Positions 38,705-41,942 of a DNA stretch of 64,000 nt are shown in pieces; position 1 is the stretch's first letter; each line of letters opens with the position of its first letter. This stretch comes from Olsenella porci (GTDB taxonomy: Bacteria > Actinomycetota > Coriobacteriia > Coriobacteriales > Atopobiaceae). The notes beneath the pieces were generated by a model. It made no database searches. It saw nothing but the letters and a program-made list of their open reading frames with translations, and had not been told where the DNA came from. The DNA is taken from contig NZ_VUNC01000002.1 in assembly GCF_009695875.1 (NCBI RefSeq), positions 186,001 to 250,000 of the forward strand. The letters run 5' to 3'. The translations under genes were made by a program, and so were the position numbers.

Positions 38705-39964
38705 ATGGACAACGACCAACAGACCGACGAGGGCAACCAGGGGCAGGCCGCGAGCGGCACGCCCGACAAGCCCGCCGGCACCGCACGGTCGAAGCGGCAT
38801 CGGTCCGGGGGCAGGCCCAAGGGCTCCAAGGGGCCGGGCGCCATCCGGGGAGGCATTGACGCCATACGGAGCGTGAGGAGCGCCTCGAAGGAGCACGCCG
38901 ACGCGCGCGAGCGTGCCGAGGCGCTCAAGAAGCAGGTTGCGGCGGACAGCGCGGAGCTCGCGCACCGCGACAAGATAGAGGGCGACTACCCCCAGATCGT
39001 CGAGCGCCAGCGCGCCGAGATGGCAGAGGCAAGCACCCTTCTCGCAAAGGCCGGGGAGGAGTCCCAGCGGCTCTCCGTCGAGGTCGAGGGGCTGACCCAG
39101 CGCCTCGACGCCATGAAGGCTGCCAACGAGGAGCAGCTGCGCCCCTATCGCGAGCTCATGAACTCCACCAAAGGCCGCTCGGACGACGCCGCGAAGTCCC
39201 TCTCGGACGTGCGCCGTGCCGTCAAGGCCGCCGACCAGCAGGTGAGCGACACCGCAAAGAGGCGCGAGCAGCGCATTGACGCCAGCAACCGCTCGGTGGA
39301 CAACGCCCAGGACAGGCTCCGCAAGGTCCAGGCGGAGCTCACCTCCCTTCAGGCAGACCCAAGCGCCTCCCCCGCCGCCGTGAGCAAGATGCAGAGCGAG
39401 GTCGTTGCCGAGCAGGCCCACCTCGACGCCGCCCGCGAGGAGGTCAAGCGCGTTACCGCCGAGTGCCAGCAGCTCATGGACAACGCGCAGACGCACCTGT
39501 GGACCCAGAAGCAGTCGCTCGAGACCCTGGAGCGCCAGGCAGGCGAGGCCCGCAAGGAGGCCGACGCCCGACGCGAGGAGTACGAGCGCCTGCACAACGA
39601 GGCCACGTGCAGGGAGAAGGAGCTCTCCGACCAGATTGCGGCGCGCAAGGGCGACCTCGAGGCGGCCAACAAGGATGCTGCCGCCGCCCAGGGCAGGATC
39701 GACGCCGCCCAGGAGGCGCTCGACGAGGCGAACTCCATCCACGCCACCCCCGAGGCCACGGCGCAGCTCAGGGGCAAGATCGCCCAGGACAAGGCGAGCC
39801 TCCATCTTCAGCAGGCTGAGGTCGACCGCCTTGCCGCAGCCGAGAGGGGCCTGCGCTCCAAGACGCGCGGCCAACGCTATGGCTTCGTGGCGATCGTCGT
39901 GGTTGCCTGCGTGGTCGTGCTCGCGCTGGTCGTGGTCATGCTCGTGCTGCCTAACCTGCACTAG
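38705..39964 (+). CDS. Long coiled-coil protein with C-terminal membrane anchor
   Basis: No family recognised. The 419-residue product starts with ~50 polar, basic residues ('RSKRHRSGGRPKGSKGPG'), continues as nearly unbroken heptad-rich alpha-helix from about residue 55 to 385 (A/E/R/K/Q-rich, for example 'LSVEVEGLTQRLDAMKAANE' and 'LHLQQAEVDRLAAAERGL'), and ends in one hydrophobic helix 'FVAIVVVACVVVLALVVVML'. This predicts a long cytoplasmic rod tethered to the membrane by its C-terminus. GAGGAG lies 7 bases before the ATG. It is divergent from ptsH and followed by a strong hairpin. Similar in layout to the small protein at 21988-22302. A scaffold or cell-division role is only a guess. Confidence 0.82.
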   Translation: MDNDQQTDEGNQGQAASGTPDKPAGTARSKRHRSGGRPKGSKGPGAIRGGIDAIRSVRSASKEHADARERAEALKKQVAADSAELAHRDKIEGDYPQIVERQRAEMAEASTLLAKAGEESQRLSVEVEGLTQRLDAMKAANEEQLRPYRELMNSTKGRSDDAAKSLSDVRRAVKAADQQVSDTAKRREQRIDASNRSVDNAQDRLRKVQAELTSLQADPSASPAAVSKMQSEVVAEQAHLDAAREEVKRVTAECQQLMDNAQTHLWTQKQSLETLERQAGEARKEADARREEYERLHNEATCREKELSDQIAARKGDLEAANKDAAAAQGRIDAAQEALDEANSIHATPEATAQLRGKIAQDKASLHLQQAEVDRLAAAERGLRSKTRGQRYGFVAIVVVACVVVLALVVVMLVLPNLH

Positions 39965-40010
39965 CAGTAGCGCTCCGCGCGCCGTTCCTGTCGAAGGTTA
40001 TCGGCATCTG

Positions 40011-40041
40011 GAGGGGTCCCGCAGCCGTTGCGGGGCCCCTC
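40011..40041 (+). terminator. Terminator after the coiled-coil gene
   Basis: 13-bp stem GAGGGGTCCCGCA / TGCGGGGCCCCTC (one G-T pair) with a 5-base loop, 46 bp after the stop. No U-tract. Confidence 0.7.
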
Positions 40042-40213
40042 ACGTCTCATGTGCCCGAAGAAGGGGATGCAAGGTCTCCCCGCCTGCGAAGTTCACGGCA
40101 CCGCGTGATCGCTCCCACCCCAGCGTCTCGCCCACCTCTCCCTGGCAGCCCTCTCACGTGCGAGCGTAAGGCGCGTCTCCCTGCCCCCGAACCTGCACGA
40201 ACTACGGGAGCGG

Positions 40214-40406
40214 CGTTTAATCTCACTAGGCCTCGTGCGGATTCCAGGATGGAATGCTTAACCTCACTAGGCCTCTTGGATGCAAAGCGGCTGAAACCCA
40301 CATTAGGGCTAGGGGCGTTAAGCAATCTCGGGCAGAATCCACATGAGGCCTAGGATCACTAAGCGCGACGGCACCGAATCCGCATGAGGCTGGGAAAAGT
40401 TAAGCG
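40214..40406 (+). repeat. Cluster of five ~30-bp repeat units with ~41-bp period and mixed orientation
   Basis: Each unit has the form GAATCC-CATGAGGCCTAG-TTAAGC. Units 3, 4 and 5 (about 40294-40325, 40336-40364, 40376-40406) read forward; units 1 and 2 (about 40214-40244 and 40257-40283) are the reverse complement. The central AGGCCT-like hexamers stand at 40228, 40269, 40305, 40346 and 40387, spaced 41, 36, 41 and 41 bp. The cluster lies between convergent genes and has no reading frame. It could be a set of protein-binding sites or an RNA with repeated stems; see findings. Confidence 0.75.
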
Positions 40407-40717
40407 TCGCGGTCGCACGCACCGCATCAGTGCGGACATAGAAAGGCACTCCACCAAGGCATCCCGCAAGGACGCCTTGTCATCCAAGCGTTCTTTCCAC
40501 CAGGTCGTTATCGCCGTCGAAACCGTGCGAGCCCGGGCGCGAATACCCGTCTCTGGCGCCCATTCTCTGGCCCATCCCGTCAGCCTTGCCCCAACCGGCA
40601 ACGCCTCGACCCCAGGACGCCTGGCGTCGCGACCCCTTCCTTACCCTCGCCTTTCTCCGATTAGCCCACTCGCCCGAACGACGGCCAGCGCGACCGGCCG
40701 CAACGACGTCCCAACAT
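40407..40717. other. Gene-free stretch between the repeat cluster and queA
   Basis: About 310 bp with no supported gene, RNA or further clear repeat unit. Confidence 0.5.
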
Positions 40718-40758
40718 GCGGCGGGCCTCGGGTGGGTCAACCCCCCGAGGCCCGCCGC
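40718..40758 (-). terminator. Terminator of queA
   Basis: Perfect 15-bp stem GCGGCGGGCCTCGGG / CCCGAGGCCCGCCGC with an 11-base loop, 20 bp after the queA stop. No U-tract. Confidence 0.75.
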
Positions 40759-40778
40759 GTCCCTCTCGCCTGGATGCG

Positions 40779-41942
40779 CTACCTAATGAGCATGGCGTCG
40801 CCAAAGCTCAGGAAGCGGTACCTCTGGTCTATTGCCTGCTGGTAGGCGGACATGATCTGGTCGCGGGTCGCGAGCGCCGAGACCAGCATCATGAGCGTGG
40901 AGCGGGGTACGTGGAAGTTGGTGATCAGCGCATCGACCACGTGGTAGGTGGACCCGGGCATGAGGTAGAGGTTGGTGGTGGCGTTGCGCCTCTCCACTAT
41001 GTCGCCCCTGCCGAGGACCTTGGCGGAGTCGGGGACGTCCTCGAAGCGCCTCGCGACGACGGGGACCCTCCATGCCGGCGCCTCGGGGTCGTAGGCGCTC
41101 TCGAGCGAGCGCACGGAGGTGGTGCCCACGGCAACAACGCGGTGCCCGGCCTCCTTGGTCTGGTGCACGAGGTCCACGACCTCCTGGCTCACGTGATAGC
41201 GCTCGGTGTGCATGACGTGCTGGGTGGGGTCGTCCTCGGTCACCAGGCGAAAGGTGTCGATGCCAACCTCAAGCTCCACGGTTGCCCAGCCCACGCCCTT
41301 CTCCTCGATGCGCTGGATCAGCTCGGGCGTGAAGTGCAGGCCCGCGGTCGGAGCGGCGGCGGAGTGCTCCTCGCGCATGGCATAGACGGTCTGGTACTTC
41401 TCAGGGTCGCCCTCGTACTTGGTGATGTAGGGAGGCAGGGGCACGTGGCCCGCCCTGTGCATGGCCTCGTCGAGCGTGAGGCCCTCCGCCGGCGTGAAGC
41501 GCACCAGGCGGCCGCCGCGGTTGTCGTCCACGAAGTCCAGGACCTCACCCGTGAGCACCACGGGGGCGGACATGGGCGCGTGCAGCCCGCCGGGGCGGTA
41601 CTCCACCACGGCTCCGGGCTTGAGCCGCTTGCCGGGGTTCACGAGGCACTCCCACACGTGCCCCAGGGCGTCAACGTCCTCCCTCCGGCGCAGCAGGAGC
41701 GTCTCGGCGACGCCGCCCGTGGCGCGCTTGTGGCCCACGAGCCTGGCGGGCATCACGCGCGTCTTGTTGGCAACCAGGAGGTCGCCGGGCTCCAGGTAGT
41801 CGATCACATCGCGGAACCTGCGGTGCTCGACCCCGCCGTCCTCGCGGTTGAGCACGAGCAGCCTGCACGAGTCGCGCGGCTCCGCGGGCTCCTGGGCAAT
41901 GAGCTCGTCTGGCAGCGGGTAGTCAAAGTCATCGGTTCGCAT
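40779..41942 (-). CDS. queA: S-adenosylmethionine:tRNA ribosyltransferase-isomerase
   Basis: QueA transfers and rearranges the ribosyl part of SAM onto preQ1 in tRNA, making epoxyqueuosine. The 387-residue product starts 'DFDYPLPDELIAQEPAEPRD' and has 'LLVANKTRVMPARL', 'HFTPELIQRIEEKGV', 'VELEVGIDTFRLVTEDD' and 'LITNFHVPRSTLMMLVSAL', all typical of QueA. Start at 41942 has AAGGAG 12 bases upstream, a longish gap. queH lies 87 bp upstream on the same strand, so the two consecutive steps may share a transcript. A strong hairpin follows. Confidence 0.96.
   Translation of the reverse strand: MRTDDFDYPLPDELIAQEPAEPRDSCRLLVLNREDGGVEHRRFRDVIDYLEPGDLLVANKTRVMPARLVGHKRATGGVAETLLLRRREDVDALGHVWECLVNPGKRLKPGAVVEYRPGGLHAPMSAPVVLTGEVLDFVDDNRGGRLVRFTPAEGLTLDEAMHRAGHVPLPPYITKYEGDPEKYQTVYAMREEHSAAAPTAGLHFTPELIQRIEEKGVGWATVELEVGIDTFRLVTEDDPTQHVMHTERYHVSQEVVDLVHQTKEAGHRVVAVGTTSVRSLESAYDPEAPAWRVPVVARRFEDVPDSAKVLGRGDIVERRNATTNLYLMPGSTYHVVDALITNFHVPRSTLMMLVSALATRDQIMSAYQQAIDQRYRFLSFGDAMLIR

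Follow-up and report, generated by a model that had tools for sequence, protein, structure and literature searches.

The window—the whole stretch of 64,000 nucleotides analysed here—features a non-coding island of 814 bp (39965..40778, assigned to neither strand). The island is flanked on its left by a coiled-coil gene (38705-39964, plus strand) and on its right by queA (40779-41942, minus strand), both of which converge on it. It holds an array (40215-40405) of five 31-nt units, two on the minus strand followed by three on the plus strand, with unit starts 41, 37, 41, and 41 bp apart—the 37 bp being the distance across the flip. The unit consensus of the window genome, rAAATCCnCAyGAGGSCTAGnnnnnYTAAGC, was derived from a position weight matrix (PWM) refined on fetched loci of this genome. 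The left arm consists of the outer unit 1 (40215..40245, minus strand; GGAATCCGCACGAGGCCTAGTGAGATTAAAC; 35.5 bits against the PWM) and of unit 2 at the centre (40256..40286, minus strand; TTTGCATCCAAGAGGCCTAGTGAGGTTAAGC; 20.5 bits), which carries TTTGCATC in place of the AAATCC box. The facing units are separated by a 6-bp centre, or dyad, without strand (40287..40292). The right arm consists of unit 3 at the centre (40293..40323, plus strand; GAAACCCACATTAGGGCTAGGGGCGTTAAGC; 37.0 bits), unit 4 (40334..40364, plus strand; AGAATCCACATGAGGCCTAGGATCACTAAGC; 42.0 bits), and the outermost unit 5 (40375..40405, plus strand; CGAATCCGCATGAGGCTGGGAAAAGTTAAGC; 29.9 bits), the core of which is the variant CTGGGAAAA. 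Five units with one change of orientation, in a convergent non-coding gap away from a promoter, had already been recognized in a first-pass annotation, and these claims are confirmed. Its description of the single units needs correction: AGGCCT centres do not hold for the third unit (AGGGCT) and the fifth unit (AGGCTG), and a GAATCC-like end is lacking in the second unit.

The family has a conserved gene order around queA. The syntenic queA gap of 25 relatives, in which no array was detected, measures 8-397 bp (median 51 bp) as opposed to 814 bp in the window genome. Given the short gap in relatives, the island and its array were either gained in the window lineage or lost in the others. The coiled-coil gene adjoins queA in most relatives examined; its product features a C-terminal hydrophobic stretch and a weak similarity to SMC, and has no Pfam match.

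The window genome belongs to the Atopobiaceae and has a size of 2.36 Mb. It contains approximately 150 units of this type (class 1) in 32 intergenic clusters, the clusters being our own grouping of matches to a sequence-only covariance model (148 unit matches at E <= 5 and 133 at E <= 0.1). With 1 mismatch allowed, CATGAGGCCTAG has 51 matches genome-wide versus 7 for the reversed control, and TAAGC-N35..37-TAAGC—boxes 40-42 bp apart—occurs 88 times genome-wide versus 3 times in the control; as judged by eye, these pairs belong to arrays. In the window itself, TTAANCTCACTAGGCCTCNTG with up to 3 mismatches is found 2 times versus 0 in 100 shuffles. Shuffles, reversed control, and TAAGC-pair counts rule out a chance similarity of the units, and the whole-genome search returned clustered arrays and not the random scatter of single units that the first-pass annotation had set against its own reading. 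A second class of approximately seven arrays in the same genome shares the outer boxes and the geometry of class 1 and carries the core RTGCRNGCACCGG (L034, L035, L047:1376-1486, L064:2638-2831, L138, L139, and L140). The one at L064 directly adjoins a class-1 array.

The arrays share a common layout. Exactly one flip occurs in 25/28 class-1 arrays with at least three units, in 5/6 class-2 arrays, and, among relatives, in 7/7 arrays of Olsenella intestinalis and 5/6 of genome G159. In the window genome, the minus arm stands first, the units of an arm are 40-43 bp apart, and the facing units are 36-38 bp apart across the flip. Arrays comprise 2 to 11 units, of which the outermost are the weakest, and at the array centres the facing AAATCC boxes are often reduced from two to one. 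Pooled over five genomes, 183/183 same-orientation spacings lie at 30-32 or 40-43 bp and none at 33-39 bp. All 183 are near three or four helical turns, with a period fit that does not single out 10.5 bp, values from 9.5 to 10.5 being about equally good. Many outermost units bear, as judged by eye, a distinct core CNGGGRAA replacing SCTAGnnnn, for example at 40375-40405 of the window, L042:2991, and L055:2933.

Identity over 78 internal units of the window genome is 84% in motif columns and 36% in spacer columns, the latter at background level, and both identities (0.84 and 0.36) have the same values within and between arrays. Whole-unit identity amounts to 0.672 within arrays versus 0.670 between arrays. 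Because the two are equal, the arrays of the window genome did not arise by recent tandem duplication or by copying from each other. As judged by these column identities, the sites are probably constrained one by one and not homogenized, and the motif boxes appear to be kept by selection. The flanks of different arrays have no shared element; only short G/A-rich, low-complexity, and ribosome-site-like words recur.

The gaps that hold arrays are long (median 803 bp); the remaining gaps in the fetched loci have a median of 94 bp. Genes in these loci were called by a simple codon-usage script, and single boundaries may be off. Array gaps comprise 21 co-directional, 10 convergent, and 1 divergent gap, versus 46, 6, and 19, respectively, among the remaining gaps with a length of 100 bp or more (Fisher p 0.006 for each of the divergent and convergent contrasts). 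Most flanking genes are of the housekeeping type and share no function; the flanking set includes enolase, phosphoketolase, S-adenosylmethionine synthetase, ffh, der, gltX, and queA, in addition to a transcription-repair-type (mfd-like) helicase, mraZ beside a tyrosine recombinase, and a sortase.

The class-1 unit has no match in any other genome among 140 species of the family, and its exact form is absent from a genome collection, which may leave out the window's own genome. A motif-free period detector was run on 109 loci of relatives and revealed non-coding arrays with a 41-42 bp period and different units in five other family members: O. intestinalis, the genomes behind L152, L153, and L206, and Thermophilibacter provencensis (at its der locus). 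All checked arrays of relatives and of class 2 are intergenic. Several arrays of relatives sit in divergent gaps, so the orientation bias seen in the window genome does not hold throughout. The unit of L152 has ATGAG and TTTAAGC in common with the unit of the window genome, as seen by eye, which hints at a stepwise change of the word. The units of L153 and L156 look palindromic, and because of this the flip has little meaning there. For T. provencensis, the weight matrix drifted into coding sequence and was discarded; with a strict pattern, the array at der is the only one in approximately 200 kb sampled. Six species (L041, L148, L152, L153, L156, and L206) have an array, each with a differing unit, in the gap upstream of der; these loci were fetched because of der, and 5 of 80 could arise from random placement. 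Four units of relatives have no match in IMG/VR. A phage origin was rejected, the four single-unit IMG/VR matches obtained being without arrays and, by estimate, near chance level.

In O. intestinalis, the unit reads TCRCGCCCTCRAnnnnnTTYTGCGCTGCA and occurs in 57 copies in that genome, and searches of four other species and of the control gave no match. The arrays of this species flip once, with units spaced at 31-32 and 41-42 bp. Some of them share stretches of approximately 95% identity that end at or near the array ends. Judged from these stretches, arrays there can be copied as blocks, and the regular spacing is partly a matter of descent; tandem duplication or copying is accepted in part for this species.

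The reading that we prefer, and to which we give about an even chance, is that the arrays are multi-site docking platforms for a putative sequence-specific DNA-binding protein. Protein binding, the use of one helix face, and a symmetric complex are inferred. A protein-binding array, which the first-pass annotation had listed among its readings, is still the simplest account of the layout. A single binding site would correspond to one 31-bp unit with its three boxes, AAATCC, CAYGAGGSCTAG, and CTAAGC. At intervals of 41 bp, the sites would be close to a common helix face, and the one flip in the middle would give rise to a two-fold symmetric nucleoprotein complex extending outwards from the centre. 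Approximately 40 such platforms would occupy long gaps between transcription units of the window genome. With the same geometry and other words in other Atopobiaceae, either the specificity of the protein or the array family may turn over between lineages. As to the role, it is a guess that the platforms mark or insulate the ends of transcription units or organize the chromosome; almost as likely, they could form a selfish array element and attract a binding protein of their own.

The main competing reading, a selfish and REP-like family of arrays, is compatible with binding platforms. In its specific form—REP/BIME-type non-autonomous repeats that a REP-associated tyrosine transposase disperses and that sit at operon 3′ ends—we consider it unlikely. 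The arrays resemble REPs, BIMEs, and REPINs (RAYT/TnpA-REP) in being dispersed, intergenic, species-specific, regularly spaced, and present in both orientations; they avoid divergent gaps in the window genome and, like REPs and BIMEs, lengthen the gap between operons. IS110-type elements insert into REPs (PMC1525189, PMC8450116), and two O. intestinalis arrays carry an IS110-family element at the identical point inside the unit. These near-identical copies (L268:5804-7477 and L275:6219-7892) encode a 383-aa transposase over the NCBIfam cut-off, and the array unit of this species looks like a guided target of such elements. REP-transposase-like Y1 matches occur in all five array-bearing relatives, and three Y1 proteins match the NCBIfam REP model below its cut-off. 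However, the window genome has no Y1 transposase (PF01797) match, and in relatives the six Y1 loci examined all lack the unit of their own species, so a REP transposase was rejected as the partner. The unit of the window genome is not the palindrome of 20-40 bp expected of a REP: it has no internal inverted repeat and no covariation, in contrast to the palindromic look of the units of L153 and L156. The GTAG or CGTC tag at one end, a feature of REPs (PMC3733652), is absent from its column composition. Regular spacing with alternating orientation is a feature of REPs and BIMEs (PMC2817692); here, the spacing is regular at three or four turns, and a single central flip takes the place of alternation. 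Motif boxes are conserved while spacers are at background, which also counts against this origin. In the window genome, the defining features of REPs are lacking, and the likeness in dispersal and position remains. The Y1 proteins at L286, L287, L288, and L291 are approximately 250-260 aa long, have no repeat units adjoining, and possess a C-terminal segment with the look of a helix-turn-helix.

A doubtful alternative to the docking platforms is that the arrays are miniature transposable elements or joined transposon ends, in which a transposase would bind the units at both ends. The ends of Tn7-like and Mu-like transposons carry several asymmetric protein sites per arm, with the arms mutually inverted. 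Symmetric arms of several sites each, the array-only duplications in O. intestinalis, and the absence of the island from the syntenic gap of relatives would all suit such an origin. Unlike those ends, the arrays are without cargo and without conserved outer ends—the outermost units being the weakest and not the best conserved—and vary in unit number from 2 to 11. In addition, the array flanks have only short low-complexity words in common, and no target-site duplication was seen by eye.

Operators of an ordinary regulon are improbable. The sites are long, specific, and multi-boxed, and some lie upstream of genes, yet one third of the arrays stand between convergent genes and only 1/32 in a divergent gap, and the flanking genes, from enolase, ffh, and der to gltX and queA, are functionally unrelated. 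A structured RNA, terminator, or hairpin formed by the inverted arms, and with it the repeat-rich RNA proposed in the first-pass annotation, is very improbable. The arrays do fold more stably than their shuffles (z about -5), which is expected of inverted arms in general. The columns show no base-pair covariation, and mirror-image units (0.638) resemble each other no more than other pairs taken from opposite arms do (0.636). There is no Rfam match, only two tRNAs were found in the window, and a consensus scan of the gap gave no promoter-like or terminator-like site.

Plasmid centromeres such as sopC of F are likewise comparable: sopC consists of protein-bound tandem repeats of approximately 43 bp, near four helical turns. 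It is a single array with palindromic boxes in one direction, whereas the present arrays are chromosomal, number approximately 40, and combine asymmetric units with a flip at the centre. CRISPR arrays differ as well, their repeats being near-identical, in one orientation, and interspersed with unique spacers; the present units are approximately 67% identical, flip at the centre, and are separated by spacers of approximately 10 bp.

Species-specific arrays of a common layout point to an undescribed, fast-evolving DNA-protein system, and the literature searches made on Coriobacteriia or Olsenella found no such repeats. More tentatively, and with less confidence than the docking platforms themselves, the Atopobiaceae may possess a chromosomal nucleoprotein-array system with a fixed geometry of dyad arrays at three- and four-turn spacing, in which the word is replaced by lineage while selection maintains the sites within a genome. 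This would be a bacterial counterpart of eukaryotic centromere or satellite sequences, which turn over along with their binding proteins. If so, one bacterial family keeps chromosome-wide symmetric binding arrays and rewrites the recognized sequence between species. Such a family would allow the joint change of a DNA-binding protein and tens of its sites to be followed in a clean natural experiment, and would also inform what the arrays are doing where transcription units end. Even if REP-like, the arrays would be of an unusual kind—non-palindromic, with one flip and lineage-specific units—and easily tested. In genome G159, arrays are located at contig ends (L260:27, L263:12403, and L264:23), which suggests that near-identical arrays break the assembly there.
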